A stretch of 64,000 bases of DNA, taken from contig NZ_CP012945.1 of NCBI RefSeq assembly GCF_001402915.1, positions 620,001 through 684,000 of the forward strand. The letters are read 5' to 3'. This document shows positions 860-20,383 of the stretch, one piece after another (positions within the stretch are counted from its first letter, which is position 1; each line of letters begins with the position of its first letter). This DNA comes from Devosia sp. A16. GTDB lineage: Bacteria > Pseudomonadota > Alphaproteobacteria > Rhizobiales > Devosiaceae. Made by a program: the position numbers and the translations under genes. The notes beneath the pieces were generated by a model. The model searched no databases. It saw nothing but the letters and a program-made list of their open reading frames with translations, and had not been told where the DNA came from.

Positions 860-1755
860 CAGCGAATTCCAGAACTCATGAGGCCGCGCACATAGTAGCG
901 CTGCAGGATGATCGCGAGGGCGACCAGCGGAATGGTAACGACGGTGACGCCGGCGAACAGCGGCCCGTCGAGCGGGAAGTTGGGGACGCTCTTGAACCCC
1001 GAGATGGCCACTTGGGCGATCTGCATGTTGGGATCCTGGATGATGACGAGCGGCCAGAGATAGGCGTTCCAGCTCCAGATGAACTGGATGAGAACGAGCG
1101 TTGCCAGCGCCGGCTTCACGTTGGGAAGCGCGATGCGCCAGAAGATCCTGAGCGTCGAGGCACCGTCGACGCGGGCAGCATCGTCGAGCTCGACCGGGAT
1201 CGACTGGAAGGCCTGCCGCATTAGGAAGATGCCGAACGGGCTGCAGGCGAAGGGCAGGAACAGCGCCGGATAGGTCGAGACCAGCCCCATGCCGCGCACC
1301 ACCTCGTAGAGCGGCACCAGGATCACCTCCAGCGGCACGAACGACGTCAGCAGCAGGATGACGAAGATGGTGTTGCGCAGTGGGAAGCGCAGGCGGGCGA
1401 AGGCGTAGCCGGCCAGCGTTGAGGTCAGCACCGCGATGATCACCTGCCCGCCGCTCGCGACAATGGTGTTGAACAGCGTGCGGCCAAAATTCAGCTGCGT
1501 GAACAGCGCCGTGTAGTTCTCGAGCGTCGGGAATGGCGGCAGGAAGGTCCAGATGGTCAGCGGGTAGCGAAACTTCACCACATCGTCGGTGGATTTGAGC
1601 GACGAGAGCGCCGACCAGACGATGGGGAACGCGAAGATCACCGTGATGATGAGGAGCGTGATCGCCCCGAACACCATGCGCGAGTTCCACACCGTCTTCG
1701 ATTTGGCGGCGGCCGTAGTGGCAGCGGCGGGGGCGGAAATTGCCTGGTCGGTCAT
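859..1755 (-). CDS. sugar-type ABC transporter permease (MalG/UgpE family)
   Basis: This 298-residue inner-membrane protein has about six hydrophobic segments and the EAA loop typical of MalG-type permeases (PVELDDAARVDGAS, then FWRIALPNVKPAL). The start is the ATG at 1755, overlapping the stop of the preceding permease as TGATG, which indicates tight coupling. Its partners are the permease at 1755-2660, the binding protein at 2744-4171 and the ATPase at 4273-5343. Family knowledge points to import of sugars, polyols or glycerol phosphates. The linked M24 protein leaves the real solute open. Confidence 0.9.
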   Translation of the reverse strand: MTDQAISAPAAATTAAAKSKTVWNSRMVFGAITLLIITVIFAFPIVWSALSSLKSTDDVVKFRYPLTIWTFLPPFPTLENYTALFTQLNFGRTLFNTIVASGGQVIIAVLTSTLAGYAFARLRFPLRNTIFVILLLTSFVPLEVILVPLYEVVRGMGLVSTYPALFLPFACSPFGIFLMRQAFQSIPVELDDAARVDGASTLRIFWRIALPNVKPALATLVLIQFIWSWNAYLWPLVIIQDPNMQIAQVAISGFKSVPNFPLDGPLFAGVTVVTIPLVALAIILQRYYVRGLMSSGIR

Positions 1756-2660
1756 CAGGATGCTCCACGCTTGCCGCGCAGGGCGAGGCCTTGGATGACG
1801 GTGATCACGACCAGCATCAGCAGCATGACGACAACGCTGGCTGCCGCCTGGCCGGGCGAATTGAAGAGGAAGGCCTGGGCGTAGGAGAAGTACGCGAGGT
1901 TGGAGGTCTGCCCGTTCGGCCCGCCGGAGGTGAGGATCTGGATCGGGGTGAAGAGGCGCGCCGCCGCGATGGTGGTCATGAACAGCGAGAGCACGATGCT
2001 CGGCCGCATCAGCGGCAGGGTGATGCGCCAGAACTTGCGCCAGCGGTTGGCGCCATCCATCGAGGCCGCCTCGAACAGGTGCGGCGGAATGGCCTGAAGG
2101 CCGCCGAGGAAGATGAGCATGGGCAGGCCGACATCTTTCCATGCCGTCATGATGACGATCGCCACGATGGCGAGGTTGCCGTCGGTGAGGAAGGGCTGGG
2201 TGGGCATGCCGAGCGCCCGGAAGATGGCGTCGAACAAACCGCTCGAGGGCTGGTAGAGCTGGTTCCACATCAGCGCCGCCACGGCCTCGGACGAAGCCAG
2301 CGCAGCAAGGATGGCGGCCCGGGCCAGCACGGTCCCGGGCATGCGCTTGTCGAGCAGGATCGCGAGAACCAGTGCCAACGGTACGATCACCACGATCATC
2401 AGCACCATGTAGACCAACGAGATCCAGAAGGCTGACTGGAAGGCCGGATCGGCCAGAATCTGCTGGTAATTCGCGAATCCGGCCCAGCCGGTGGGCCGAT
2501 GGGTGAACGGATTGAAGCCGCGAAAGCTGTTCATGATCGCGACGATGAGCGGCCAGATCCAGAAGACGCCGAGCCCGGCTGCGGCCGGGATCACCATCAG
2601 CGGACCGATGGCGAGTTCGCCTCGTCGGGTGGGGTTTACGGAAAAGCCCGGAATTCTCAT
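1755..2660 (-). CDS. sugar-type ABC transporter permease (MalF/UgpA family)
   Basis: The protein is about 301 residues with six predicted membrane segments and the EAA motif (PPHLFEAASMDGANRWRKF, then ITLPLMRPSI). Two starts are possible. The ATG at 2672 directly abuts an AAGAGG, while the ATG at 2660 sits 12 bases from it; I chose 2660. It forms the heterodimeric channel with the MalG-type permease whose start overlaps its stop. It follows the binding-protein gene after about 80 bases. Confidence 0.88.
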   Translation of the reverse strand: MRIPGFSVNPTRRGELAIGPLMVIPAAAGLGVFWIWPLIVAIMNSFRGFNPFTHRPTGWAGFANYQQILADPAFQSAFWISLVYMVLMIVVIVPLALVLAILLDKRMPGTVLARAAILAALASSEAVAALMWNQLYQPSSGLFDAIFRALGMPTQPFLTDGNLAIVAIVIMTAWKDVGLPMLIFLGGLQAIPPHLFEAASMDGANRWRKFWRITLPLMRPSIVLSLFMTTIAAARLFTPIQILTSGGPNGQTSNLAYFSYAQAFLFNSPGQAAASVVVMLLMLVVITVIQGLALRGKRGAS

Positions 2661-2743
2661 CGTCGCATGCATCCTCTTGGGAGGCGGGCCGCCCCGCCAG
2701 GGACGGAGCGGCCCAGGGCCGGGGAGGCCGTATTTGGCGGTGC

Positions 2744-4171
2744 TTACTTGTACTTGGCGAGGAGACCGTCGATCTGGGTCGCCACCTGGTCGAGGCGGCC
2801 CTGCGGATCGGCGCCGAGCGCGATGTCCTTGACGGCCGGGTTGATGGCCGAGAAGTAGTCGAACCAGCCAACCGACTTCGGCGGGCCGAAAGCGTGGTCG
2901 GCCACATTGGTGCCGAGCGTCAGGCGCTGGTCGGTGGCGTATTCGGGCAGCGCGTCGACCAGGGTCTTGCGCACCGGCATCGAGCCCCACGCGTCATGGA
3001 AGGCGAAGCGGTTCTCATCGTTGCAGATGAAGGCGAGGAGCGCCGCGGTTTCCGCCGGGTACGGGGTGCCCGACCAGATGATCGGCGAGTCGGCGACCGT
3101 GGTGGTGTAGGCGATGGTGCCCTTGGGGGCGGGCGACATGCCGAAGTTGAACGGCTGGCCGGTCTTCAGGAACCGCTTCACGGTGCCGGTACCGGAGAAG
3201 GTGATGGCCGCAGCCCCGCCGCGGAACTGGTCGGGCACGACGCCGGTCGGAGTATAGCCGTTGGTGAACACGGCCTTGTAGTTGGCCATGCCCTTGGCGG
3301 CTTCCGGGGTGTTGACGTAGCCGGTGGCGGTGAAGCCGTCCTCGGAGACGCCCATGAAGGTGTTGTAAGCCGACGAGCCCTTCTCGGCGTTCGGGTCGCC
3401 CATCATGCGCACCCAGATGCTTTCGAGCTGGGTGTAGTTGGAGCCCGGCCCACCATTGCCGTACCCGGAGGCGGCGAGGGCGAAGGTCTGCTGGTCGCCC
3501 GAAGCGCGCAGCGCCTTGGTGACGTCGTCGAAGCACTGCATGTACTCCTCGACCGTCCAGCCGCCATCGTATTCTGCCACTTCCGGCGGCGGCTTGATGC
3601 CGAGCTTGTCGAAGATGTCGCGATTGAACGCCATGTAGACCGGGTTGGTCTCCCACGGCAGGCAGACGAGGTTGCCGTCGATGGTCGCGGATTCGCGCAG
3701 CGGCGCGTAGACGTCGGCGATGAAGTCGGCCGACAGGAACTGCTGCAGCGGCAGGGTCAACTGGCCGGCGGCATAGGCCGAGGCGAAATCGTTGCGGCCC
3801 ATCATGATGTCGGGCGCCTGGCCCGAGGCGACATAGACCTGCACCTTGGTCGGCAGGTCGCCGTAGGGGACGCGCTCTTCCTGGATGGTGATGTTCGGGT
3901 AGGCCGCCGAGAACTTGGCATAGATGGCGTTCATCACCTCGTTGGTCTCGGGCGGATATTCCTGCCGCATGATCTTGAGGGTGATCGGCGCACTCGACAG
4001 CTCGGGGCCGGTATAACCGCCGAGGTCCAGCTTGTACTTGCCGGGGTTTGAGCCGGGAGTGGCGGCGAAGGCGCGCGACGGCAGGATGGCCGGCATCGCG
4101 AGCGCCGACACGCCGGCAGCCATGCCGGCGAGTACGGAGCGTCGCGACAGCGTCGATTTGAACTTGGTCAT
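2744..4171 (-). CDS. extracellular solute-binding protein, family 1 (Tat-exported)
   Basis: This 475-residue periplasmic binding protein opens with a twin-arginine signal (LSRRSVLAGMAAG, hydrophobic stretch, then PSRAFA), so it is probably exported folded. GAGGA sits five bases before the ATG at 4171, which excludes the longer reading frame from 4204. The mature part has the family-1 pattern (PDIMMGRNDFASAYAAG; VYMAFNRDIFDKLG). It delivers the solute to the two permeases downstream. The ligand cannot be read from the sequence. Confidence 0.9.
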   Translation of the reverse strand: MTKFKSTLSRRSVLAGMAAGVSALAMPAILPSRAFAATPGSNPGKYKLDLGGYTGPELSSAPITLKIMRQEYPPETNEVMNAIYAKFSAAYPNITIQEERVPYGDLPTKVQVYVASGQAPDIMMGRNDFASAYAAGQLTLPLQQFLSADFIADVYAPLRESATIDGNLVCLPWETNPVYMAFNRDIFDKLGIKPPPEVAEYDGGWTVEEYMQCFDDVTKALRASGDQQTFALAASGYGNGGPGSNYTQLESIWVRMMGDPNAEKGSSAYNTFMGVSEDGFTATGYVNTPEAAKGMANYKAVFTNGYTPTGVVPDQFRGGAAAITFSGTGTVKRFLKTGQPFNFGMSPAPKGTIAYTTTVADSPIIWSGTPYPAETAALLAFICNDENRFAFHDAWGSMPVRKTLVDALPEYATDQRLTLGTNVADHAFGPPKSVGWFDYFSAINPAVKDIALGADPQGRLDQVATQIDGLLAKYK

Positions 4172-4272: not shown

Positions 4273-5343
4273 TCAGGAGAGACGCTTGCCCGTCCCGGCA
4301 TCGAAGCAGTGAATTCGCGCCCGCTCGGGCGCGAGATGAATGGTGTCGCCGCGCACGATCGACACGCGGTCCTTGGCGATGGCGGTGACGCGCTGCGTGC
4401 CGATATCGGCGACGATCTGCGTTTCGGCCCCGGTTGGCTCGACGACGACGACCCTGGCCGCAAAGCCGGTGTCGCCGATGCTGAAGTGCTCGGGACGGAT
4501 GCCCAGGTCGACGGCAGTGCCGGGCGCGACGCCCGTCAGCGTGCCGCCCAGCGGCATGGCCTGGCCGGACTGGTGCTCGAAGGTGAGGCCGGTATCCCCG
4601 CCCACCAGCGTGCCGCGCAGCAGGTTCATTGACGGCGAGCCGATGAAGGTGCCGACGAAGGCATTGGCCGGGTTGTCGTAGAGTTCGAGCGGCGTGCCGA
4701 TCTGCTCGACGATGCCGGCCCGCATCACCACGATGCGGTCGGCCATGGTCATGGCTTCGATCTGGTCGTGCGTGACGTAGATGGTGGTGACCTTGAGCCG
4801 CTCGTGCAGGTCCTTGATTTCCGTGCGCATCTGGACGCGCAGCTTGGCATCCAGGTTGGAGAGCGGCTCATCGAACAGGAAGACGCGCGGGTTGCGGACG
4901 ATGGCGCGGCCCATGGCGACGCGCTGCTGCTGGCCACCCGAGAGCTGGCGCGGGTAGCGATCGAGCAACGCTTCGAGGCCGAGGATTGCCGCGGCGCGCT
5001 TTACCTGCTCTTCGATCGCGAGCTTCAGGACGCCGCGCATCTCGAGCGAGAAGCTCAGGTTCTCGCGCACCGTCATGTGCGGGTAGAGGGCGTAGTTCTG
5101 GAACACCATGGCGATATCCCGGTCCTTGGCCGCCTTGTCGTTGACCACCTCGCCGGCGATCTCGATCTGGCCGCCGGTGATATCTTCGAGGCCGGCGATC
5201 ATGCGCAGCAGGGTGGACTTGCCACAGCCCGATGGCCCGACGAGGCTCAGGAACTCACCGTCGACGATGCCGAAATCGACGCCTTTGAGAACCTCCGCGC
5301 CGGCGAAGCTCTTGATCACTTTGCGCATCTGCACGCTGGCCAT
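4273..5343 (-). CDS. ABC transporter ATP-binding protein (UgpC/MalK family)
   Basis: This 356-residue ATPase is full length for the MalK/UgpC group. Walker A is GPSGCGKST near residue 37, the signature is [14 protein letters not shown], and Walker B is VFLFDEP followed by the [10 protein letters not shown]-loop. A TOBE-type domain fills the last third. It is the first gene of the leftward operon and energises the permeases at 859-2660. It is the only MalK-type ATPase in the window, so it could also serve the ATPase-less sugar importer at 33857-36908, as MsmK does in other bacteria (inference). Confidence 0.92.
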
Positions 5344-5386
5344 ACGATCCCCCCAGGGCGTGGTTCGATGAGCTGAGCGTGGCGTC

Positions 5387-5418
5387 TTGTATTCTTCATG
5401 TCAACAAATCCGATACAA
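5387..5418. promoter_or_regulatory. candidate operator upstream of the UgpC operon (TTGTAT...ATACAA)
   Basis: TTGTAT at 5387-5392 and ATACAA at 5413-5418 form an interrupted inverted repeat 44-75 bases before the ATPase start. The 3' half lies in TCAACAAATCCGATACAA, which resembles the sequences at 12732 and 12940 in front of the two other clusters. It is weaker than the uninterrupted palindromes at 5643 and 12952, so it is offered as a related site only. Confidence 0.4.
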
Positions 5419-5642
5419 ACTATCAGACGATTGTGTTGCCATCATCCCGCCAGGCGGACAGCGCAGAGACCGGTTTCATAGCGAGCCGCAAAACGCGCCC
5501 TGCCCCGCCCGAACATGTTGGAATCTCAGGTGTTCTCGCGGCATTTGACACTTGATAGTGCGATCGTTGCGCCCCGGCGCCAATGACCCTGCTCCGCAAA
5601 TTGCATAGCAGCTATACATTTTTTGCACGCCGCGCCCTGAAG

Positions 5643-5656
5643 TTTTGTATACAAAA
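5643..5656. promoter_or_regulatory. candidate operator palindrome TTTTGTATACAAAA
   Basis: This perfect 14-bp palindrome lies 48 bases before the TTG start of the TIM-barrel gene at 5704. The GT-N2-AC core in an AT-rich palindrome is the shape bound by many GntR-family regulators. The same ten-base core, TTGTATACAA, recurs at 12952-12961. No GntR gene lies within 1-16469, so the regulator would be encoded elsewhere. Confidence 0.55.
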
Positions 5657-5703
5657 ATGATGAGCTCCGCATTCACTCGGGGCTGTCAACGACGGAGAGC
5701 AGC

Positions 5704-6645
5704 TTGATCGGCGTATTCAACAACAGCCTGCCCGGGTACGAGGGGCTGACCCCCATCCAGATTCTCGACAAGGCCGCGGAACTGGGGCTCGGTGCCGTGC
5801 TGTTCGGCAACATCCTCGCGGTGGTGCCGGACCTCGATCACGGGAAACTCGCCGAGATCGGAGCGGCCGCCAAAGCGCGGGGCCTGAAGCTCAATGCCGG
5901 TGTCGGCACCTTCAACCCGGCCCGGCCCGAGCGCTGCAAGTCGCTGATCGAGGCAGGCGGCGGCGATATGGTGAAGGGGCTCGAGCGCGTGTTGCGCGCC
6001 ATGCCGGCGCTGGGCGCCGAGACGGCGTTCTTCGTCGTGGGGATGATCGAGGACCGCGATGATCCGAACGTGCCGTGGGCGGCGCAACTGCGGGGCGTGA
6101 TCGACGGGGTGAAAGCCCTGGCCCCCGCCATTCGCGAGTCGGGTACGCGGCTTCTGATCAAGACGCACGAGGAGATCTCGAGCTTCGAGATCCTGCGCAT
6201 TATCGAGGCGGTCGGCGAGGACCTGCTCGCCATTGCGCACGACCCGGTGAACGTGCCCTGCCGCGTCGAAGATCCGGTGGAATGTACGCGCCGCATCGCC
6301 AAGCACGTGGTGCAGGTACATATCGATGATTGCTACACCACCTTCGACGGCGACGACATGCGCCGCTACCTCACGGCGCTAGGCACCGGCGACATCGACT
6401 GGCCCGCCCTGCTCGCGCTCGTGCCGCACGCGACGCGCTGGATCGAGTTCCACCGCGGCCAGTTCGCGATGCCGATGTTCGACAAGGCCTGGCTGGCTGC
6501 GCAGGCCGACGCCACGCTCGACGAATATCGCTCGCTGATGGCCGCCACGGTGCGCAACGCGCGGGCGGAACGTCCGATTCCGGACCAGAAGGATGTGTTC
6601 CTGCGGCTCGCCCCCAGCATCGAATGGCTGAAAGCCCACGCCTGA
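5704..6645 (+). CDS. TIM-barrel sugar phosphate isomerase/epimerase-like protein
   Basis: This 313-residue cytoplasmic protein belongs to the xylose-isomerase-like TIM-barrel superfamily. Likely metal-site residues are E in KTHEEIS, D in HDPVNVP, H and D in VHIDDC, and E in WIEFHRGQ. The start is a TTG at 5704 with GGAGAGC six bases upstream; no ATG or GTG lies nearby. It is transcribed divergently from the UgpC operon and stands alone, converging on the racemase gene. Family members isomerise, epimerise or dehydrate sugars and inositols; the substrate here is unknown. Confidence 0.82.
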   Translation: MIGVFNNSLPGYEGLTPIQILDKAAELGLGAVLFGNILAVVPDLDHGKLAEIGAAAKARGLKLNAGVGTFNPARPERCKSLIEAGGGDMVKGLERVLRAMPALGAETAFFVVGMIEDRDDPNVPWAAQLRGVIDGVKALAPAIRESGTRLLIKTHEEISSFEILRIIEAVGEDLLAIAHDPVNVPCRVEDPVECTRRIAKHVVQVHIDDCYTTFDGDDMRRYLTALGTGDIDWPALLALVPHATRWIEFHRGQFAMPMFDKAWLAAQADATLDEYRSLMAATVRNARAERPIPDQKDVFLRLAPSIEWLKAHA

Positions 6646-6649
6646 GGGA

Positions 6650-7354
6650 CTAGCTCAGCAGCCTGCCCCATTTGCCCGGCAGGCTGCTCCCCAGGCCGAG
6701 AGCATTGAGCGCTGCCCAGACACCGGCCGAAACGGAATCGAGCACCGGGATGCCCAGTTCGGCCTCCATCTGGGCGCAGAGCCCCGCCCCGGGCAGGTTG
6801 GTGCAGTAGTAGAGGATCGCATCGGGTTTGCTCTCGGCCACCTGCCGCGCCATCGCCTTCAACGTTTCCGCTTCCATGGTCGAATAGCTGAAATTGTCGG
6901 TGAGGCCGGCGCCGAGATCGGCGACCGAGTTGTAGCCCGCCGCGCTCCAGCCTCGCACGATCTTGTCGTTCACCTGCTGACCGAATGGCGTGACGAAGGC
7001 GATGCGCCCGATCCCGGCACCGCGCAGCAGAGCGTCGAGGGCCAGCACCGAGGTCACCGCCGGAACGCCATGCGCCTCGGTGATGCGGCGACAGAGCTCG
7101 CGATCACGATCGAAGCCGAGTTCACCGCCCTTGGAACCGTTCCAGCAGATGAGGTCGACATGCGCGTCGGCGAGCAGTTGCGCGGCGCCCAGCATCGACG
7201 GCCAGTGATAGTCATCGACCACCGTGTCGCTCGGACCGGCAAAGCCGAAGCGCGCGAAGTGGGGGGAGACCCCCGGGATGTCACGCGTCATCGCCAGCGT
7301 CACGCGCTCGACCATGACGTTGGACGAGGGCGTGATGGTGCCGAAGGATTTCAT
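6650..7354 (-). CDS. Asp/Glu racemase superfamily protein (maleate isomerase / arylmalonate decarboxylase-like)
   Basis: This 234-residue protein has the two-lobed fold of the maleate isomerase/arylmalonate decarboxylase group. Both catalytic cysteine positions are filled: C70 in DLICWNGSKGG and C184 in YYCTNLPGAG. With two cysteines an isomerase or racemase reaction fits better than decarboxylase chemistry, which uses one. It is the last gene of the peptide-type importer operon and overlaps the ATPase stop as ATGA. It probably acts on the imported compound or an early breakdown product. Confidence 0.8.
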   Translation of the reverse strand: MKSFGTITPSSNVMVERVTLAMTRDIPGVSPHFARFGFAGPSDTVVDDYHWPSMLGAAQLLADAHVDLICWNGSKGGELGFDRDRELCRRITEAHGVPAVTSVLALDALLRGAGIGRIAFVTPFGQQVNDKIVRGWSAAGYNSVADLGAGLTDNFSYSTMEAETLKAMARQVAESKPDAILYYCTNLPGAGLCAQMEAELGIPVLDSVSAGVWAALNALGLGSSLPGKWGRLLS

Positions 7355-8160
7355 GCCACGGCCTGCCGCTGGGCTCGCCGCGCGCGCCCGACCCCGGGGT
7401 CGGGGATCGGCACGGCCTCGAGAAGCGCCTTGGTGTAAGCATGCCGCGGGTTATCGAAGACCTGCTCGCGAGTACCGTGCTCGACGATGCGGCCCTTCTC
7501 CAGCACCGCAACGGTGGTGCAGAGGTGGCGGACGACGGCGAGATCGTGAGCAACGAACAGGATGCCGAGGTTGAGCTGCTCCTGCATGTCCTGCAGCAGG
7601 TTGATCACCTGCGCCTGCACCGACACGTCCAGCGCCGAAACCGGCTCGTCGCAGATCAGCAGCTTCGGCCGGATCACCAGCGCACGCGCAATGGCGATAC
7701 GCTGGCGCTGGCCACCGGAGAACGAGCGCGGATAGCGGGCAAGCGCCTCCTCGCCGAGCCCGACCATCTTCAGCATCTCGACGACGCGGTCGCGGCGGCC
7801 GGCCGAACTCTTCTCGAGCTTGTGGACGAGCAGCCCTTCTCCCACCAGTTCCTCGACGGTCATGCGCGGGTTGAGGCTGGCATAGGGATCCTGGAACACC
7901 AGTTGGACGTCGCGGCGAAAGCGCAAGGCGTCGGCCCGGCCGGGGCGGTGCACATCGATGCCGCTATAGCTGACGCGGCCGCTGTCGGGCCTCGCGAGCC
8001 CGAGCGCGCAGCGGATGATTGTCGACTTGCCCGAGCCGCTCTCACCGACGAGTCCGACGGAATCGCCTTCGGCGACATCGAGGACGATGTCGTCGAGCAC
8101 GGTGACGCGCTGGCCGCGCCCTGCCGGGAAGGATTTGGAGATGTGGTCGATCTGCAGCAT
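7351..8160 (-). CDS. dipeptide/oligopeptide-type ABC transporter ATPase (DppF-like)
   Basis: This 269-residue ATPase has Walker A GESGSGKST, Q-loop VFQDPYASLNPRM, signature FSGGQRQRIAIARAL and Walker B LLICDEPVSALD. It is short for DppF and lacks the C-terminal cysteine-rich oligopeptide-transporter extension. Its start overlaps the DppD-like stop as TGATG, and its stop overlaps the racemase start. It pairs with the ATPase at 8160-9176 in the peptide-type importer. Confidence 0.9.
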   Translation of the reverse strand: MLQIDHISKSFPAGRGQRVTVLDDIVLDVAEGDSVGLVGESGSGKSTIIRCALGLARPDSGRVSYSGIDVHRPGRADALRFRRDVQLVFQDPYASLNPRMTVEELVGEGLLVHKLEKSSAGRRDRVVEMLKMVGLGEEALARYPRSFSGGQRQRIAIARALVIRPKLLICDEPVSALDVSVQAQVINLLQDMQEQLNLGILFVAHDLAVVRHLCTTVAVLEKGRIVEHGTREQVFDNPRHAYTKALLEAVPIPDPGVGRARRAQRQAVA

Positions 8161-9176
8161 CAACCGGCCCCATGGAGATGGCAACGCACCCGCGCGCCGA
8201 GTCGCGTCACGATCTCGGCCGGCTCGATCGTCGAGCAGACCGCCATGGCGCGACCGCAGCGGGGGTGGAAGGCGCAGCCGGAAGGCCGCGCCGCCGGCGG
8301 TGGAGGAGCGCCGGGGATGGATGGCAGCCGGGCGACCGTGACGTCGGCGCGCGGGACGGCCTCGAGCAGCCCTCGCGAGTAGGGGTGCTGCGGCTCGCCG
8401 AACAGCAGCGTGGCCTCGTTCTCCTCGACTATACGACCCGAGTACATGACCATCACCCGGTCCGCGAAACCGGCGACGATGCCCATGTCGTGGGTGATGA
8501 GCAATACAGCCAAGCCGCGACTGCGGGAGATTTCGTCGAGCAGGTCGAGGACGCGCTCCTGGACGCGGACGTCGAGCGCAGTGGTGGGCTCGTCGGCGAT
8601 CAAGAGGTCGGGCTCGCCGACCAGCGCCATGGCGAGCACGACACGCTGCCGCATGCCGCCGGAGAACTCGTGCGGATAGGAGTCGAGACGTTCGGCGGCG
8701 CGCTCCACCTTCAGTTCGTCGAGAACATCGAGTGCGCGCTTGCGGGCCTCCTTCCTGCCGATGCCGCGGATGCGCAGCGTCTCGGCCACCTGCTCGCCGA
8801 TGGTCATCAGCGGGTCGAGTGAGCTCATCGGATCCTGGAAGACCATGCCGATGCGCCTGCCACGGACCTCGGCCATCTGCCTGGGCGAGAGGGTCAGGAG
8901 ATCGGTGCCATCGAAGCCCACAGAGCCCGACAGCTTCACACGGGAGTTGAGGCGCATGATCGCCTGCGCGGTCACCGACTTGCCCGAGCCGCTCTCGCCA
9001 ACCAGCGCCACGCGCTCGCCGCGACCGATGCCGAAGCTGACACGGTCGACGAGCCGCGTTGTCGCCTCGCGCGTCGCAATGTCGATCGACAGGTTTTCGA
9101 CCGACAGCAGCCTGTCGGGTCGCCGCCGCAGATCCGCGGGTACTACGCCATCGGTCAGGATCGTATCCACTCCCAT
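8160..9176 (-). CDS. dipeptide/oligopeptide-type ABC transporter ATPase (DppD-like)
   Basis: This 338-residue ATPase has Walker A GESGSGKSV, Q-loop VFQDPMSSLDPLM, signature [15 protein letters not shown] and Walker [13 protein letters not shown]. It ends with the family's C-terminal cysteine segment (SGCAFHPRCGRAMAVC), which binds an Fe-S cluster in some DppD proteins. It lies between the DppC-like permease and the DppF-like ATPase in one tightly spaced operon. Confidence 0.92.
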   Translation of the reverse strand: MGVDTILTDGVVPADLRRRPDRLLSVENLSIDIATREATTRLVDRVSFGIGRGERVALVGESGSGKSVTAQAIMRLNSRVKLSGSVGFDGTDLLTLSPRQMAEVRGRRIGMVFQDPMSSLDPLMTIGEQVAETLRIRGIGRKEARKRALDVLDELKVERAAERLDSYPHEFSGGMRQRVVLAMALVGEPDLLIADEPTTALDVRVQERVLDLLDEISRSRGLAVLLITHDMGIVAGFADRVMVMYSGRIVEENEATLLFGEPQHPYSRGLLEAVPRADVTVARLPSIPGAPPPPAARPSGCAFHPRCGRAMAVCSTIEPAEIVTRLGARVRCHLHGAG

Positions 9177-9179
9177 GGT

Positions 9180-10028
9180 TCAGGCCTGCAGCGAGGGGTC
9201 GCGCCGCACCTGCAGGATATCGGCCAGCAGGGCAAAGGCGACAGCATTGATGACGATGGCGGCGCCGGGAGCGGCAACGGCCCACCAGGCGATCGACATA
9301 TAGGAACGGGCGCCCGAGATCATGGCGCCCCATTCCGGGCTCGGGGGTTGCGCACCGACACCGATGAAGGAGAGGCCGGCAAGGATCAGCATGGTGAAGC
9401 TGATGTCGCCCGCCCATTTGACGATCAGCACGTCGATCGAGTTGGGCAGCACGTGTTTCAGCATCAGCCGGAGCGGCGAGACGCCGAGCACGCGCGCGCC
9501 CTCGACAAACGGCTGCTCCATGGTCTGCCGCATTGTGGTGCGAAGGATGCGGGCGGTCATCGGCCAGCCGGTGACGGCAAGCGCGATGATGCCGGACTGC
9601 AGGCTCGGGCCCAGCACCGTGGCGATGCCCAGCGCGACGACGAGGCCGGGCAGCGACTGCCCGATATCGGTGATGCGCATCAGGAGCTCGTCGATCCAGC
9701 GCGGGCCGACCGTCGCCAGCGTCGCGAAGATCATGCCGATGGCCGAATAGAGCGCGACGACGAGGATGGTGGAAAAGAGCGAGAGCTGGGAGCCGGCGAT
9801 CAGCCGCCAGAAAATGTCGCGGCCCTGGTCGTCGGTGCCGAGCCAGTAGCTGGCGCTGGGCGGCATCAGCGTCATCACCATGTTGGAGGTGTAGATGCTG
9901 GCCGGGGCGACGAGGGGGCCGACGAGCGCCAGCAGCAGCAGCGCGGCGACCACAGTGAAGACGGCCAACTCGTACGGCGTGAAGCGGGCCTTGCGCCTGG
10001 CGGGGGTGGTGGACATTGAAGCGGTCAT
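9180..10028 (-). CDS. peptide-type ABC transporter permease (DppC-like)
   Basis: This 282-residue inner-membrane protein has the DppC N-terminal segment, the motif YWLGTDDQGRDIFWRL, and the EAA loop (FVEGARVLGVSPLRLMLKHVLPN). Its start overlaps the DppB-like stop as ATGA. It forms the importer channel with the gene at 10025-11056. Confidence 0.9.
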   Translation of the reverse strand: MTASMSTTPARRKARFTPYELAVFTVVAALLLLALVGPLVAPASIYTSNMVMTLMPPSASYWLGTDDQGRDIFWRLIAGSQLSLFSTILVVALYSAIGMIFATLATVGPRWIDELLMRITDIGQSLPGLVVALGIATVLGPSLQSGIIALAVTGWPMTARILRTTMRQTMEQPFVEGARVLGVSPLRLMLKHVLPNSIDVLIVKWAGDISFTMLILAGLSFIGVGAQPPSPEWGAMISGARSYMSIAWWAVAAPGAAIVINAVAFALLADILQVRRDPSLQA

Positions 10029-11056
10029 CGTGCCCCCGCCCCCATTTGCCGGCCGCGAATGCGCGGGTCGAGCATCAGCGTGATCACGTCAGCCACGAGA
10101 TTGACGACACAAACGGCGACGCCGACGAACATCACTGCGCCGAGCACGGCGTACGTGTCCTTGAGCGCCACCGAATTGGCGAGGAAGCTGCCGACGCCGC
10201 GCCGCGCGAACACCGTCTCGACGAGGATCGCGCCGCCCACCATGCCGCCCACCAGCGTGCCGATGAGACTGACTGTCGGGGGCAGAGAATTGGGCAGCGC
10301 GTGGCGCAGCACGATGGTGCGGGTCGAGGCGCCCTTGGCACGCACCGGCAGCACCATGTCGGAGGCGAGCACGCCGATCAGGGTTGCCCGCAGCAGACGG
10401 TAGACCTGCGAGGCGAACGGCACGGCAAAGACGAAGGCCGGCAGGATCAGGTAGGCCAGCGCATCGAGAAAGCCCGCGAAGTCGCCCGCGAGCAGCGCAT
10501 CGATGGTCGGCATGCCGGTGACGGTCGGCGAGGCCACACCGAACGAATGCTGGCCGGAGATCGGGGTGATGCGCCACACGCTCCCGAGGAAATATTGCAG
10601 CATCAGGGCCAGCCAGAAGGCCGGCATGGCGCCCCCGACGACGGCGACGAGGCGGCTCGCGCCGTCGAAGGCCTTGCCGCGATAGGTTGCTGCGACGAGC
10701 GCAGGCGGAACGGCGAGAATTACACCGAGGATGGAGGCGAAGATCATCAGCTCGATGGTCGAGGGCAGCACGGCGGCAAGTTCGGAGAGCACCGGCTTGG
10801 CCGACACCACCGAGGTGCCGAGATCGCCGCGTACGAGGCGACCAAGGAAAGCCAGGTATTGTTCCGGCCAAGGCAGGTCGAGGCCGAGACGTTTGGCCAC
10901 CGCAGCAACCTGCTCCTGGCTCGCGCCGGGGCCGGCGGCCACCTGCGCCTCGTCGCCGGGGATCAGCTTGATCATGACGAAGACCAGGGTCGCCAGACCC
11001 CAGAGGGTCAGCACCATCATCACAAGCCGTTGGCCTACGAGGCGCAGGTAGCTCAT
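10025..11056 (-). CDS. peptide-type ABC transporter permease (DppB-like)
   Basis: This 343-residue permease starts with the classic DppB opening (MSYLRLVGQRLVMMVLTLWG, then LIPGDEA). It has six membrane segments and an EAA-type loop in which VRAKGASTRTIVLRHALPN takes the usual place. It lies five bases downstream of the binding-protein stop. Nothing unusual was seen. Confidence 0.9.
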   Translation of the reverse strand: MSYLRLVGQRLVMMVLTLWGLATLVFVMIKLIPGDEAQVAAGPGASQEQVAAVAKRLGLDLPWPEQYLAFLGRLVRGDLGTSVVSAKPVLSELAAVLPSTIELMIFASILGVILAVPPALVAATYRGKAFDGASRLVAVVGGAMPAFWLALMLQYFLGSVWRITPISGQHSFGVASPTVTGMPTIDALLAGDFAGFLDALAYLILPAFVFAVPFASQVYRLLRATLIGVLASDMVLPVRAKGASTRTIVLRHALPNSLPPTVSLIGTLVGGMVGGAILVETVFARRGVGSFLANSVALKDTYAVLGAVMFVGVAVCVVNLVADVITLMLDPRIRGRQMGAGAR

Positions 11057-11061
11057 CGGCG

Positions 11062-12642
11062 CTACTTCTTGAGCAGGTTGTAGTCGAGCGGGGCGAAGTT
11101 GCCGTTGATGCTGGCGGCGCCTTCAGTCGGGTTGGACAGCCGGTCGGAACGGTAGGCGACGTAGGAGCCCGCCCAGTACATCGGCATGAACACGGAATCC
11201 TTCTCGATGATCTGCTGCGCCTCTTTGTAGAGGTCGCACCGCTCGGTGGCGTCGGCGCTGCCGACGGCCTTGTTGAGGATGTCGTCGACTTCCGGGTTCT
11301 TGTAGCCGGCGCGGTTGGTGCCGACGGCGGTCGAGATGAAGGTCTTGGTGAGGAACACGCCGGGATCGGGGAACAGCGAGTTCTCCGAAAGCAGCATCAG
11401 CTGCGGGATCTGGGCGGGGTCCTGCAGCATCTGCAGGTAGTTCGGGAAGGCGATCGGCTCGAGGTTGAGCGTGACGCCGATATCCTTGAGGTTGGACTGC
11501 AGGAGCGTCGCCTCCTGCACCTGGTCCTCGAATGCCGGCTGGAAGCGCAGCGTCAGGGTGAGGTTGGTGGCCCCGGCCTCGGCGAGCAGGGCCTTGGCCT
11601 TCTCGATGTCGCGAGCAACGGTCGGGAATTCGGGGCGGCAGGAAAGCGTGTCCGGCAGCGGGCCGGCCGGCAGGCTGCCCTTGCCGCGATGGATGCCGGC
11701 GAGGCCGCCCTCGTAGTCATAGGCGAGACGGATCGCTTCACGCACCTTCACATCGGCAGTCGGACCGGTCGAGGTGTTGAAGTAGATGCCGTTGACCTGG
11801 GCCGCCGGCCCGTAGGCCACCGCCACGCCGGGCTCGTTGGCGATGACGTCGAGGTCGCGCTGCAGGATGTTGCGGCCGACGTCGATATTGCCGACCTTCA
11901 ATTCGTCGCGCTTGGGCGCGCTTTCGTCGGAGCGGCGGAAGATCAGCGAGGCCGGGCGATCGCCCTTGTCGCCCCAGTAGGTGTCGGCCCAGTCGATGGT
12001 GATATCGTTGCCCTGTACCGAGGTCAGCTTGTAGGGGCCCGAGCCGGCATCGTTGGCGGCGAGCCAGGCCTGCGCGTCGTCGGCGCCGGCATTGGCCGTC
12101 GCGAGCGCCGAGTTGATGACGTAGATGCGGCCGAGCGAGCCGAGGAACAGCGCGTTCGGCTTGGTCAGCTTGATGGTGAAGTGGGTGTCGTCGGCGATCT
12201 CGGTGCTGTCGTACCTGTCGATGTAGGAGGCAACGCCGGTGGCGAGACGCTTCACGCGGTCGAGCGAGTAGGCCACGTCTTTGGACGTGACCGGCGTACC
12301 ATCATGGAACTTGGCGCCGTCGCGGATGGTGAAGGCGATCGAGGAGGCGTCGGGCGCGACCGTGAACTCCGAGGCTAGCGCACCGATGACGTTGAGCTCG
12401 GCATCGAAGGTGATGAGCGGGCTGTAGATGCGGCTCGTCAGGTCGTTGGTCTGGAAGTAATTCGAGGCGATCGGGTCGAGTGTGTTCACCGATCCGGCGC
12501 CCGACACGATAACCGTATTGGCGCGGTCGGCCGCCGAAGCCGCCCCCGCGGCGAACAGCGCGCCCAGCGCTACCGCCCCGAGCATCGCCGTCATTTGCAG
12601 CTTGTTGCGCAGTCGCATGGTTGGTCGAAGGGTCGCTTGCAT
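11062..12642 (-). CDS. extracellular solute-binding protein, family 5
   Basis: This 526-residue periplasmic binding protein for peptide, nickel or opine-like solutes has a Sec signal ending at GAASA-AD. The mature part shows the family start NTVIVSGAGSVNTLDPIAS and the LAYDYEG and NPEVDDIL regions. I chose the ATG at 12642 because GGAG lies nine bases upstream; a longer frame runs to 12819 but lacks a binding site and would bury the signal peptide. It is the first gene of the leftward operon to 6650. A GTATAC palindrome lies about 100 bases upstream. Confidence 0.9.
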   Translation of the reverse strand: MQATLRPTMRLRNKLQMTAMLGAVALGALFAAGAASAADRANTVIVSGAGSVNTLDPIASNYFQTNDLTSRIYSPLITFDAELNVIGALASEFTVAPDASSIAFTIRDGAKFHDGTPVTSKDVAYSLDRVKRLATGVASYIDRYDSTEIADDTHFTIKLTKPNALFLGSLGRIYVINSALATANAGADDAQAWLAANDAGSGPYKLTSVQGNDITIDWADTYWGDKGDRPASLIFRRSDESAPKRDELKVGNIDVGRNILQRDLDVIANEPGVAVAYGPAAQVNGIYFNTSTGPTADVKVREAIRLAYDYEGGLAGIHRGKGSLPAGPLPDTLSCRPEFPTVARDIEKAKALLAEAGATNLTLTLRFQPAFEDQVQEATLLQSNLKDIGVTLNLEPIAFPNYLQMLQDPAQIPQLMLLSENSLFPDPGVFLTKTFISTAVGTNRAGYKNPEVDDILNKAVGSADATERCDLYKEAQQIIEKDSVFMPMYWAGSYVAYRSDRLSNPTEGAASINGNFAPLDYNLLKK

Positions 12643-12731
12643 TCCAGTGCTCCGGTGCACAGTGTTTCCTGGGTCCCTGTGACGGCGCTCCCCGGGCTGC
12701 CCTGCCCCGCGCCGTCGCTGATTTCGCGGTA

Positions 12732-12751
12732 TCAACGATTTCGTATACATA
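12732..12751. promoter_or_regulatory. candidate operator with GTATAC core upstream of the peptide-type importer
   Basis: TCAACGATTTCGTATACATA lies about 90 bases before the binding-protein start. It matches the site at 12940-12961 and the half-site at 5401 in the lead-in TCAAC-A-AT and in the ATACA end. The palindromic core is only GTATAC here. It could alternatively be part of a -10 region. Confidence 0.45.
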
Positions 12752-12951
12752 CCATAATCAAAACGAACACATCTTTGGGCCACGGTCAACGGGGTGAATC
12801 GCGGAATCTTGAGCCTCAAAAGGCAGCAGATTGCCTATGTTTCAGGCAATTTCTCCCACTGCTTCGGCCAATTTGACGGAATAGCGGCGACCGACAGGCG
12901 GCTCGCGTGCCTGTGTCGCCCAACTCAAAATGTACGGGATCAACAAATTTC

Positions 12952-12961
12952 TTGTATACAA
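12952..12961. promoter_or_regulatory. candidate operator palindrome TTGTATACAA
   Basis: This perfect 10-bp palindrome lies 60 bases before the ATG of the hydantoin-racemase-like gene at 13021 and repeats the core found at 5645-5654. The lead-in TCAACAAATTTC starts at 12940. The 378-base gap between the divergent genes (12643-13020) holds this site and the one at 12732; I see no gene in it. Confidence 0.55.
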
Positions 12962-13020
12962 TCAATCGGCTGTGCAACATGCAAGGATTGGCCGCACGGG
13001 CCCGACTGGATTCACGACGC

Positions 13021-13755
13021 ATGACCAAGCCACACATCCTGCTCATCAATCCGAACACCTCCGCCCCGATCACCGAGACGATCCGGCAGCTGGCGATGGC
13101 AGAGATCGGCGGGCAGGCGAACCTCACGGCGGTGACCGCGCCTTTTGGGGCCCGCTACATTTCCTCGCGCATGTCCGTAACGATTGCCGCGCATGCCGTA
13201 CTCGATGCCTATGCGGCCGCGGTGGCGAATGGCGGGCGGTTCGATGCGGTGATCGTGGCCTGCTTCGGTGATCCCGGCATCGACGCGCTCAAGGAGATCG
13301 TCGACATCCCCGTGGTCGGCTTCGCCGATGGGGGATTGATTGCCGCGGCAGCGCTGCCGGGGAAATTCGCGATCGCCACCATAGGCGAGGCGTGGCGCGA
13401 CATGCTGACCGAACTGGCTCTGCGCCGTGGCTTCGGCGACCGTCTGGCGGGGGTGATCCTTATCGAGGAGAACGGCCGTGCGCCGGAGGTTGCCGGGCCG
13501 CGCATCACCGCCAGGGCGAAAGCACTCGGGGTCGAGCGCGTCGTCATCGGCGGCACCGGGTTGATCCCGGTTCTCGATTCAATCGCCGGCAATGTCGGCG
13601 TTGATGTGGTCGATCCGCACCGCGTCACCCTGCATGATGTCATCCGCATGATCGGCGATGCGCCCGAGCCCAGGCCGGCCGCAGCGGCGCCATCGCTCTT
13701 CACCGGCCTGTCCTCGGCCCTCGAGGGGCTGCTCAACCATCCGTACGCCAGTTGA
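13021..13755 (+). CDS. hydantoin racemase-like protein (HyuE/Asp-Glu racemase family)
   Basis: This 244-residue protein opens with MTKPHILLINPNTS, the classic start of this family, and carries the first catalytic cysteine at C81 (VIVACFGDPG). At the second catalytic site, where hydantoin and amino-acid racemases have Cys in a V-L-G-C-A-G stretch, it has VVIGGTGL (residues 175-181), so a Gly stands there. A two-base racemase reaction is thus doubtful; a hydrolase, decarboxylase or isomerase role is possible. The start is the ATG at 13021, since the frame upstream of it to 12907 reads through the operator. It lies 17 bases before the synthase gene. Confidence 0.82.
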   Translation: MTKPHILLINPNTSAPITETIRQLAMAEIGGQANLTAVTAPFGARYISSRMSVTIAAHAVLDAYAAAVANGGRFDAVIVACFGDPGIDALKEIVDIPVVGFADGGLIAAAALPGKFAIATIGEAWRDMLTELALRRGFGDRLAGVILIEENGRAPEVAGPRITARAKALGVERVVIGGTGLIPVLDSIAGNVGVDVVDPHRVTLHDVIRMIGDAPEPRPAAAAPSLFTGLSSALEGLLNHPYAS

Positions 13756-13772: not shown

Positions 13773-15050
13773 ATGACGACCAAACCGCAGCGCGGCACGC
13801 ACCTCGTAGAGGGCCGCCATTTCGTCAGCCCGTTCAACTTCATGCCCGAAGTGACCACCGGATGGGAGATCCCCACTCCGCTGGGGCTCATCGACAGCAC
13901 GATCCGCAAGGTCATCTACACTGTCGGCGTGCGCCCGACCGAAGGCGAGCTTGTCGAGATCTGCGGCCTGCTCGAGGAACTGGGGATCGAGGAAGAAAGC
14001 CTCAACGTCTGGTGGCGCGGCGGCGACGAAGGCGATCCGCAGGAACTGGCCGCGGTTTTCGCCATCGCCAGGGCCAAGCCGAAGTTCAAGGTCAACGTTT
14101 TCACCGACACCCTGCTGGGCAATGGCGATACGCCCATGCCGCTGATGAAGCAGACGGTCGACATGTTCGCCGAGGCCGGCATCAAGCTGCTCAACCCCGG
14201 CCTGCTGCAGGCCCCGAGCGAGGATGCCCGCAAGCGCCAGGCCGACGAGATGGCGGCGATGAACGAATACATCAAGGCCGCCGGCATGGAGTGGAACGGC
14301 ACCGTAGCCCAATGCGCGCGCCGCAACTTCGACGAGTTCATGGCGCTCTGCAACACGGCTATCGACAACGGCATCCGCCGCTTCGACCTGATGGACTCGA
14401 CCAGCGCGCTGTCGCCCGAAGGCATGAAGCACTATGTGCGCACCTTCCGCAGCCGGCTGAAGTCACCGACGCCGCTCACCATGCATACGCACGACGATTT
14501 CGGGATGGATACCGCGGGAACCATCGCCGCCGTGCTGGCCGGCGCCTCGCCCGACGTGGCGCTCAACGGCGTCTCCTACCGTTCAGGCTTTGCCGCCCTC
14601 GAGGAGGTCGTCGTGGCACTGGATGTGCTCTATGGCGTCGATACCGGCATCCGGCTCGACAAGCTGCAATGGGCGGCGGACGAACTCGCCCGCATCATGC
14701 GCTTCCCCATCCCGCCGCTGAAGCCGGTAGTGGGTCGCCACCAGTTCCTGCGCGAGGGTGCGCACGACATCGAGAAAATGCTGGATGGCCGCGCTCCGGC
14801 GGATTTCGCCAACATGGGCAGCAGCTACAGCCCCGAACTGATCGGCGCAAAGTTCGACTGGGTCTACTCGCAGCAGGGCAATGGGCGCATCGTTGCGGCA
14901 GCCGCGAAGTCGATCGGCGTGGCGCTCACCGACAAGCAGGTCGACGAGGCCGTAAAGGTGCTGGAGGACAAGCTCGCGGCGCACCCCGCCTATCCGCGCT
15001 GGGCCACGCCCGACGAGGTGTTCGCGGTGATACGGCAGGTGGCCGCCTAG
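13773..15050 (+). CDS. HMGL-like/DRE-TIM family protein (homocitrate or isopropylmalate synthase-like)
   Basis: This 425-residue TIM-barrel protein resembles the alpha-isopropylmalate/homocitrate synthase and HMG-CoA-lyase group. The N-terminal motif reads LIDSTIRKV (D41, R45) where the family has D-T-L-R-D-G. The metal histidines are visible in MHTHDDFGM. The later G-x-G-E-R-x-G-N stretch is replaced by NGVSYRSGF. These changes suggest a divergent aldolase, lyase or condensing enzyme, not LeuA. AAGGAGTTCCC before the ATG fixes the start. It sits in an operon with the racemase-like gene and the MFS transporter. Confidence 0.75.
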   Translation: MTTKPQRGTHLVEGRHFVSPFNFMPEVTTGWEIPTPLGLIDSTIRKVIYTVGVRPTEGELVEICGLLEELGIEEESLNVWWRGGDEGDPQELAAVFAIARAKPKFKVNVFTDTLLGNGDTPMPLMKQTVDMFAEAGIKLLNPGLLQAPSEDARKRQADEMAAMNEYIKAAGMEWNGTVAQCARRNFDEFMALCNTAIDNGIRRFDLMDSTSALSPEGMKHYVRTFRSRLKSPTPLTMHTHDDFGMDTAGTIAAVLAGASPDVALNGVSYRSGFAALEEVVVALDVLYGVDTGIRLDKLQWAADELARIMRFPIPPLKPVVGRHQFLREGAHDIEKMLDGRAPADFANMGSSYSPELIGAKFDWVYSQQGNGRIVAAAAKSIGVALTDKQVDEAVKVLEDKLAAHPAYPRWATPDEVFAVIRQVAA

Positions 15051-15056
15051 TTCGGC

Positions 15057-16469
15057 ATGAAGCCCTGGATCGCGCCCAAGTCGATCGGTGATATCCGCGT
15101 CGGATCCGTCGCCCTCATCGTGGCGGCGGCGCTGTTCATGCAGATGCTGGACTCCACCATCATCGTCACGGCCATCCCGGCAATGGCGGGTTCGTTCGGG
15201 GTCACGCCGCTATCCATGGGCGCGGGCATCACCACCTACATGCTCACGGTCGCCATTCTCATCCCGGCGGCGGGCTGGCTCGCCGACAGGATCGGGGCAC
15301 GCAGCGTGTTCCTGGGCGCAATCGTCGTATTCACGCTTGGCTCGCTGCTCTGCGGCCTGTCGCGGGACCTGCCGCAGTTCATCGGCTCGCGCGCGGTGCA
15401 GGGCGCCGGTGGCGCCTTCATGGTGCCGGTGGGGCAGATCATCGTGCTGCGCCTCGCCCAGCGCGATCAGCTGGTGAGAACGCTCTCGCTGCTGAGCTGG
15501 CCGGCGCTCTTCGCCCCAGTCATCGGCCCGACGATCGGTGGTTTCATCACCACCTACTTCTCCTGGCGCTGGACGTTTCTCATCAACATCCCCCTGGGCG
15601 TCATCTGCCTCACCCTTTCGGTCTGGCTGATCCCCGATGACGGGCATCGCAAGAACGTGCCGCTCGACTGGCTGGGCCTGCTGCTGTCCTCGCTCGGCCT
15701 GGGCGCCCTTCTCGCCGGGCTGGACGGGCTGGTCCACCACAGCACGAACCTGCCGGTTACGGTTGGCCTGATCGTCGGCGGAGTGGCGTTCTGCGGCCTC
15801 GCAACACGCCACATGCTCCACACCACCCACCCCCTGCTCGATTTCTCGATCATGCGGGTGAAGAGTTTCGCGCTCTCGACCCTGTCGTCCGGCAGCTATT
15901 ATCGCATTGCCCTCAACACCATGCCGTTCCTGCTGCCGCTGCTGTTCCAGCTGGCGTTCGGGATGACGGCCTTCCAGGCCGGCAGCCTGATGGTGGCGTA
16001 TTTCGGCGGCAACCTCGCGGTTCGCCTGATCACCACGCCGGTGCTCGAACGCTTCGGTACACGCAAGGCGGTGGTCGTCAACGGCATCCTCAGCGCCGTG
16101 GCGATTGCGCTTTGCATTCCGCTCGACGCCACGACCCCCCTGCCACTGGTGCTGGCGCTGTTGTTTCTCGGCGGCGCCACTCGCTCGATGCAGTACACCG
16201 CGCTGAATGTCCTCACCTTCATCGACATCAGCCCCGAACAGCGCAGCTCCGCCTCGACCCTGGCGACGATGATCATGCAGATCACCATCCTGCTTGGTGT
16301 GGTCGTCGGCACCCTGAGCCTCAGCCTGTTTCAGGCCGTTCGTGGTGCAACAGCACTCGGCCTGCCCGATTTTCAGCTGAGCTTCGCCGCCCTCGCCACC
16401 CTGACGCTGATATCCGCCCTTCAGATGCGCAGGATTCCCCAGTCAGAGACGGAAGCTCGACGAAAGTAG
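15057..16469 (+). CDS. MFS transporter, DHA2-type (14-TM drug/metabolite exporter family)
   Basis: This 470-residue inner-membrane protein has the DHA2 opening motif (QMLDSTIIVTAIPAMAGSFG), motif A (GWLADRIGARSVFLG) and many hydrophobic segments, consistent with 13-14 helices. It starts six bases after the synthase stop, so it is the third gene of the rightward operon. Family members export drugs or metabolites by proton antiport. Here it may export a toxic intermediate or take up an alternative substrate (inference). Confidence 0.88.
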   Translation: MKPWIAPKSIGDIRVGSVALIVAAALFMQMLDSTIIVTAIPAMAGSFGVTPLSMGAGITTYMLTVAILIPAAGWLADRIGARSVFLGAIVVFTLGSLLCGLSRDLPQFIGSRAVQGAGGAFMVPVGQIIVLRLAQRDQLVRTLSLLSWPALFAPVIGPTIGGFITTYFSWRWTFLINIPLGVICLTLSVWLIPDDGHRKNVPLDWLGLLLSSLGLGALLAGLDGLVHHSTNLPVTVGLIVGGVAFCGLATRHMLHTTHPLLDFSIMRVKSFALSTLSSGSYYRIALNTMPFLLPLLFQLAFGMTAFQAGSLMVAYFGGNLAVRLITTPVLERFGTRKAVVVNGILSAVAIALCIPLDATTPLPLVLALLFLGGATRSMQYTALNVLTFIDISPEQRSSASTLATMIMQITILLGVVVGTLSLSLFQAVRGATALGLPDFQLSFAALATLTLISALQMRRIPQSETEARRK

Positions 16470-20068: not shown

Positions 20069-20383
20069 ACCTCGATGCCCGGCAAACGAGTTTGCGGACC
20101 GGGTCGCGACGAGCGTCCACCACCGCCACTGCGCGGTTCCTCCGGCCCGCAACCAAGTGCCCCGACCCAAGTTTAAGAGCCCGACAACGCGCCCGGAGCA
20201 AACGGCTCCGCGCCTAGTCACGACCGCATCGTAAACCTTTGATTTTGCTGACAAATATGGTCACGAGCGTGTCAGCATCAGACTGCTAGCGTCAGCCTCA
20301 GCTTGCCGGGGTCCGTCTGGACTCGTGGCTGCTGGGACATGGCGCGACGACGCCCAGCCCTGAAAACAATGGAGGAAAAAACC

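Follow-up and report, generated by a model that had tools for sequence, protein, structure and literature searches.

The FCD/VanR-group GntR repressor Atu1419 of Agrobacterium fabrum is a tetramer acting on ATGTATACAT palindromes, by which it keeps neighbouring catabolic genes repressed; some of the palindromes overlap a -10 box, and two of them, 190 bp apart, were seen to loop in electron micrographs (PMC7797058). The sites of the FadR subfamily are built from TKGT/ACMA boxes (in some groups two bases separate GT from AC), further half-sites are found at 7-12 nt from the middle of the site, and the proteins bind carboxylic-acid ligands (Suvorova et al., PMC4494728). A third member of the GntR superfamily, the tetrameric BusR of Streptococcus agalactiae, reads a bipartite motif 22 bp apart (PMC8517857). 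A system that combines an Atu1419-like palindrome with a BusR-like spacing is described here for Devosia sp. A16, in a block of uptake and catabolic genes (about 612603-636469 of the genome, ~24 kb) that lies partly in a stretch of 64,000 nucleotides, the window, comprising bases 620001-684000 of the single 5,032,994-base contig. Palindromes related to TTGTATACAA precede the transcription units of this block, and with a probability of about 0.86 they serve as operators for a single GntR repressor of the FCD type, P0008, whose gene lies in the block as well, as the last of the operon that begins with a UgpC-type ATPase gene.

The likeness to Atu1419 lies in the FCD family, a 10-bp palindrome with the same GTATAC core, the neighbouring catabolic genes and the occurrence of two palindromes in one intergenic region, whereas the pathway is different and the extracts of its description mention no 22-bp box (PMC7797058). 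The 22-bp spacing of a bipartite motif is shared with BusR, but that protein has an RCK_C domain and a coiled-coil ruler and binds cyclic di-AMP (PMC8517857), P0008 carrying an FCD domain, and the distance differs from the 7-12 nt of FadR-subfamily operators (PMC4494728). A local FCD-GntR regulon like that of Atu1419, gene control of a known and ordinary kind apart from its unusual spacing of 22 bases, is well supported (PMC7797058). The Atu1419 label was absent among the 15 solved-structure sequences matching P0008 at E 0.001. A search of open-licence papers, with RegPrecise outside its reach, covering the palindrome, GntR together with TTGTATAC, barbiturase or cyanuric acid hydrolase, and the regulons of FCD or Devosia GntR proteins, found no description of the present regulon.

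A preliminary description of the window had pointed to four palindromic sequences, and all four were located in the window sequence at the positions it gave (Table 1). They had been placed 45-110 bases before four start codons, which is nearly right, the recalculated distances being 43 bp for the UgpC operator (likely start 5343), 49 bp for that of the isomerase-like gene (likely start a TTG at 5704), 122 bp for the OppA operator (ATG at 12618; about 98 bp if the in-frame ATG at 12642 is taken) and 59 bp for the racemase operator (ATG at 13021). The proposal of a single catabolic regulon of about 16 kb holds as regards one local regulon, with the size corrected to about 24 kb and a fifth operator added before the genes for a ring-opening amidohydrolase and a binding protein. 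Likewise, the regulator was correctly expected to be of the GntR type, while its gene, thought to lie outside the block, is the distal gene of the UgpC operon and so within it. On the UgpC strand the UgpC operator encloses a perfect TTGACA (window 5399-5404) between its half-sites, kept in four genomes, with no recognisable -10 at 16-18 nt.

The block was found in four genomes (the source genome G000, G067, G068 and G076), and in every one of them sites precede the UgpC, TIM2 isomerase, OppA, racemase and AtzD-like genes, so that the expectation of conservation before orthologous genes was borne out in the relatives scanned. The TTGTAT-N20-ATACAA operator of UgpC is kept in all four, and this element and the isomerase palindrome are the most conserved stretches of their intergenic region. 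The AtzD-like gene has three different placements, in place and orientation, among the four genomes with its site always retained about 60-80 bp upstream (1 mismatch in G000 and G068, none in G067, 2 in G076). A gene for a relative of the NMT1-type binding protein (61% identity; L066 7475-8350) follows the MFS gene in G076, not the AtzD-like gene as in G000, and is a further part of the block that has changed place. In the regions of 30-40 kb around the blocks, operators account for 4/4 GTATAC cores in G000, 4/4 in G068, 4/5 in G067 and 3/4 in G076.

Across the family, exact TTGTATACAA occurs in 27 of 136 genomes at 33 places, and close orthologues of P0008 (at least 62% identity) are present in eight other family genomes, the next matches being at about 40%. 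The exact sites of G067 (3/3 of the genome total) and G068 (2/2) lie inside the orthologous block, the sole exact site of G101 lies 121 bp before the regulator gene, and that of G088 lies on a separate contig, next to a GntR gene other than the orthologue (29% identical); G076, G096, G130 and G103 have near-exact sites and no exact one. Conservation of this kind is stronger evidence than motif counts.

P0008 scores 58.7 bits for the GntR domain PF00392 (cut-off 27) and 70.4 bits for the FCD domain PF07729 (cut-off 24.3), and it is the sole FCD gene of the block, its nearest FCD neighbours being about 91 kb away on the left and 81 kb on the right. P0008 would be the obvious reader of the palindrome there. 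The link between regulator gene and motif was followed in 37 orthologues of 42-71% identity (5 from the same family, 4 from the same order and 28 from the same class) over 350 bp upstream. This set excludes the four block genomes, where the regulator is operon-distal, and 21 of 51 matching genomes without a locus; five Rhodobacterales loci were examined separately. An exact site lies upstream of 7 of the 37 orthologues, a site with at most one mismatch upstream of 24 and one with at most two upstream of 32, leaving five with none. Among all 1024 ten-base palindromes upstream of the same genes TTGTATACAA ranked first (24), followed by TCGTATACGA (19) and then by a palindrome with 8, and 19 control palindromes of the same composition reached 0-2 of the 37. 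All five Rhodobacterales loci have a site with at most one mismatch. A palindromic operator with TKGT/ACMA boxes thus lies near regulator and target genes, as is looked for in FCD regulators.

In the distant relatives the block was not found, and the regulator gene stands beside other genes, usually carrying the site itself. In the Rhodobacterales locus L046 the regulator is divergent to a polyamine-type ATP-binding cassette (ABC) importer, accompanied by genes for a GNAT protein and for a member of the Asp/Glu racemase family; similar genes occur in L044 and L048. The theme of importer plus racemase, common to the Rhodobacterales loci and the Devosia block, hints at the effector. The recognition-helix Arg (position 38, placed by hand alignment) sits in SRT-x-VR(A/S)AL in 12/12 aligned orthologues. 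By the same kind of alignment Arg38, Thr39 and Asn59 of the helix-turn-helix of P0008 fit the rules given for the FadR subfamily, in which the trends for Thr39 and Asn59 are not significant (PMC4494728).

The palindrome is accompanied by a second box 22 bp upstream. Offsets of 10 to 60 bp on both sides, 102 in all, were scanned around 51 primary sites, comprising those of 32 of the 37 orthologues (at most two mismatches) and the five Rhodobacterales loci, together 37 regulator-upstream sites, and 14 block sites; the OppA and racemase sites of G076 and the UgpC elements stood outside the 51. The offset -22 came first of the 102 in both sets (z 4.8 for the 37 regulator-upstream sites, z 5.7 for the 14 block sites). 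When the upstream flanks were mononucleotide-shuffled, with correction for the choice of upstream offset, 0, 0 and 2 of 2000 trials reached the observed mean for 27 non-redundant regulator sites, the 14 block sites and the 4 sites of G000, respectively. Some orthologues use 23 bp, and the TTGTAT...ATACAA element of UgpC has the same 22-bp register. In the relatives the box of the isomerase site reads TTGCATGCCA or TCGCATACCA, 7/10 letters. The box is better supported than the lead-in reported as common to three sites, which is present in the source genome, where UgpC and racemase have it as TCAACAAAT and OppA in the form TCAACGATT. In the relatives the lead-in is kept at UgpC in 4/4, at racemase partly and at OppA not at all, and it was dropped as a general part of the motif.

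Several observations weigh against the reading of these sites as operators of P0008 with a second box. Five of the 37 orthologues have no upstream site (G618 and G736, both at 64%, G839, G592 and G470), and P0008 itself has none directly before its gene; the five may be operon-distal as P0008 is. The -22 box is weak, with at least 7/10 letters in 9/37 regulator and 7/14 block sites, or 14/37 and 7/14 if -22 or -23 is allowed. Co-change of the outer bases 2 and 9 of the palindrome was not significant (both changed in 6 and one side in 13 of 37; Fisher p 0.14) and was dropped as evidence of a dimer site, which slightly lowers the probability of operators read by P0008 and slightly raises that of a mere promoter. 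Of the three His and the Asp/Asn that serve as metal ligands in the metal-binding FCD subgroup, the His residues are present in the FCD domain, while Ser appears to stand where the usual Asp is expected, at what we take to be the ligand position of the alignment. Membership of the VanR group would call for six helices, not seven, in the effector domain and for a tetramer. Position 28 of the helix-turn-helix is Asp, a residue that favours G/C, whereas the operator has T at the corresponding base (PMC4494728). In addition, the family has 25 exact sites that are not near an orthologue of P0008, of which 24 were counted here (that of G088 being examined separately), and 16 of the 24 have another GntR gene within 2.5 kb.

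This last finding bears on the alternative that survives best, namely that another FCD-GntR protein is the reader of the palindromes (the genome has 29 FCD genes, P0008 included) and that P0008 is a bystander. The chance of a GntR gene lying near a site is estimated at 3-6% (from 29 FCD genes, or from about 50 first-look candidates), and TTGTATACAA looks like a common FCD-GntR operator in the family; as other GntR genes lie near 16 of the 24 exact sites, cross-talk with other FCD regulators is possible. These genes are only 23-42% identical to P0008, some of the matches being short or weak, and the remaining 8 of the 24 sites have no GntR gene within 2.5 kb. Against a bystander role, the orthologues of P0008 and the motif travel together across many genera (32/37, at most two mismatches) and P0008 is located in the block in all four block genomes, so that this alternative is considered improbable.

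It is quite unlikely that GTATAC is merely -10 sequence and the -22 box a -35 element, with no operator present. The distance from TTGYAT to GTATAC/TATACA is 18-19 nt, near promoter spacing, and the block sites conserve TTGYAT, the left half of the box, so that a -35 element stays an alternative for them; the failure of the outer-base argument also favours it. Unlike in a -35 element, however, conservation of the box in the regulator-upstream set is no lower in its right half (ACRA) than in its left, the palindrome is conserved at both outer ends (TT and AA), which reach past a -10 hexamer, and the 19 other A+T-rich palindromes of equal composition are not enriched. A scan with the sigma-70 consensus of window 5300-5750 and 12600-13060 found no promoter, which carries little weight as only 0.2-0.3 were expected. 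The caution in the preliminary description that GTATAC could partly be -10 sequence need not be an either/or, since a palindrome of Atu1419 overlaps a -10 box and promoter overlap leaves room for an operator (PMC7797058).

In the window alone 4 matches with at most two mismatches were counted against 2.38 expected, a number reached by 19 of 100 shuffles; this count was uninformative and was replaced by whole genomes and orthologues. Exact TTGTATACAA occurs at 2 places in the 5.03-Mb genome, both in the block, so that the motif is not spread at random as it might have been (the reversed control occurs once). With at most one mismatch there are 6 places against 8 for the reversed control, the four additional ones being 614705 in the block and 776071, 921425 and 3411337 elsewhere, whose 3-kb loci yielded no GntR gene; with at most two mismatches there are 165 against 217. 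The motif is therefore without genome-wide excess, and its excess is local to the block. The pattern TTGTAT-N20-ATACAA occurs exactly once, at the UgpC element from which it was derived and which is thus not an independent match. With at most two mismatches it occurs at 9 places, 5 of them in the block (4 distinct operators, the OppA site not among the 9), against 18 for the reversed control. Chance, that is an A+T-rich pattern noticed through repetition in one stretch, is favoured by the ordinary count in the window and by genome-wide counts below the control at one and two mismatches, but can be dismissed on the exact copies falling in the block and the conservation of the sites in relatives.

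With P0008 taken as the reader of the five operators, repression, the oligomeric state, the effector and the substrate can be inferred as follows. A dimer would bind TTGTATACAA through its GT-AT-AC core, and about two helical turns upstream, at 22 bp, the weaker half-site would accommodate another dimer, either a separate one or the other half of a tetramer, on the same face of the DNA. In the absence of inducer P0008 would shut the five promoters of the 24-kb block of uptake and catabolic genes, among them the promoter of its own operon, and would be released by an inducer, probably a carboxylic acid arising from the opening of a nitrogen-rich ring compound. A carboxylic acid is the likely inducer because FadR-subfamily proteins bind such ligands (PMC4494728). 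A more elaborate picture is tentative and rather doubtful as a whole, in which an FCD-GntR tetramer acts as a ruler on a strong palindrome and a second half-site two turns upstream at each target, the two elements of the divergent OppA and racemase promoters, about 20 turns apart, are looped together, and one enzyme of the regulon, the ring-opening amidohydrolase, acts on a new substrate other than cyanuric acid or barbiturate. The spacing of the OppA and racemase cores, 211, 212, 210 and 176 bp in the four block genomes, is compatible with looping, not proof of it. Looping between the UgpC and isomerase operators was set aside, the distances between their centres (247, 242, 242 and 257 bp) keeping no constant phase.

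The ring-opening enzyme, P0009, has barbiturase as its closest relative in the PDB (5hwe, 1e-55), followed by cyanuric acid hydrolases, and it matches PF09663 with the Ser226/Lys156 pair kept, which places it in the AtzD/Bar (Toblerone) superfamily. It departs from the AtzD signature (Ser85/Lys42 dyad; Arg195/Thr321/Arg325/Gly345/Gly346) in having Thr for Ser85 (in all four orthologues), Ser for Arg195, Met/Gly for Thr321 (dependent on the alignment), Lys for Arg325 and Ser for Gly346, Gly345 being kept in 3/4. The barbiturase signature Asn195/His321/Lys325/Val345/Ser-Ala346 is likewise missed, 2/5 positions fitting (Ser195, Met/Gly321, Lys325, Gly/Ala345, Ser346). Its specificity positions thus fit neither cyanuric acid hydrolase (AtzD, TrzD) nor barbiturase (PMC3758960; PMC4051656). 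One survey describes Ser85 as conserved throughout (PMC3758960), another only the Ser226/Lys156 pair as conserved family-wide (PMC4051656). P0009 would hydrolytically open some nitrogen-rich ring, and it is perhaps a ring-opening enzyme with a new substrate.

A motif sighting has in this way become a regulon open to testing, for which the regulator gene is named, the geometry is specified and five operators are predicted. The P0009 branch of the cyanuric acid hydrolase/barbiturase superfamily, as yet uncharacterised, is linked with racemase-type enzymes, a pair of amidohydrolases and two importers that are both complete, a gene content that narrows the search for the natural substrate of the P0009 branch. 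The 22-bp register, the top offset in two separate sets of sites, raises the question of whether binding to bipartite sites as two paired dimers is common among FCD repressors; specialist attention is best given to this architecture and to the atypical ring-opening enzyme.

Table 1. Predicted operators, accompanying boxes and genes of the block (window coordinates unless marked as genome).
Feature	Coordinates	Strand	Remarks
UgpC-operon operator TTGTAT-N20-ATACAA	5387..5418 (TTGTAT 5387-5392, ATACAA 5413-5418)	-	two half-sites, 22-bp register
TTTTGTATACAAAA before isomerase-like gene	5643-5656		contains TTGTATACAA at 5645..5654
Perfect palindrome TTGTATACAA before isomerase-like TIM-barrel gene	5645..5654	+	kept in 4/4 block genomes (exact in 3, 1 mismatch in G076)
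Weak box at -22 of isomerase site, TTGCACGCCG	5623..5632	+	5/10 letters
OppA-operon operator TCGTATACAT	12741..12750	-	GTATAC core 12743-12748, core kept in 4/4 block genomes
Box at -22 of OppA operator, ATGTGTTCGT on OppA strand	12763..12772	-	5/10 letters, itself conserved
Perfect palindrome TTGTATACAA before racemase/HMGL-like/MFS operon	12952..12961	+	in 4/4 block genomes (TCGTATACAA in G076)
Weak box at -22 of racemase site, ATGTACGGGA	12930..12939	+	5/10 letters
Fifth operator TTGTATACAT	genome 614705-614714		5.3 kb left of window, before AtzD/barbiturase-like P0009; 1 mismatch
P0009, AtzD/barbiturase-family ring-opening amidohydrolase	genome 613518-614636 (L007 13518-14636)	-	PF09663
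P0008, FCD-type GntR regulator	genome 614835-615548		distal gene of UgpC operon, about 4.5 kb left of window edge
M24-family peptidase-like gene	1..859	-	runs out of window to genome 619663
Two sugar-type ABC permeases	859..2663 (1755-2663 and 859-1755)	-	open reading frames named by inspection; orthologues in relatives
Sugar-type solute-binding protein	2744..4171	-	
UgpC/MalK-type ABC ATPase	4273..5343	-	first gene of operon ending in GntR gene; NF008653 over cut-off
Xylose-isomerase-like TIM-barrel protein (TIM2)	5704..6645	+	PF01261
Arylmalonate decarboxylase/EutA-like protein	6650..7354	-	distal gene of Opp operon; below NCBIfam cut-offs
Peptide/nickel-type ABC importer OppF, OppD, OppC, OppB, OppA	7351..12618	-	
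Asp/Glu/hydantoin racemase-family protein	13021..13755	+	
HMGL-like (isopropylmalate synthase-like) protein	13773..15050	+	earlier in-frame TTG at 13752
MFS transporter	15057..16469	+	

Left of the window the UgpC operon continues after the M24 gene with a TIM barrel and two amidohydrolases of the triazine-hydrolase/deaminase superfamily before ending in P0008. The gene that follows P0009, 3 bp on, encodes an NMT1-type binding protein. The TIM-barrel protein P0012 had no relatives in the PDB at E 0.001. Elsewhere in the window, positions 20303-21826 encode a DUF6600 protein with a long tail rich in Pro, Ala and Glu that repeats CPEGQQLVDGKCVP-like units.

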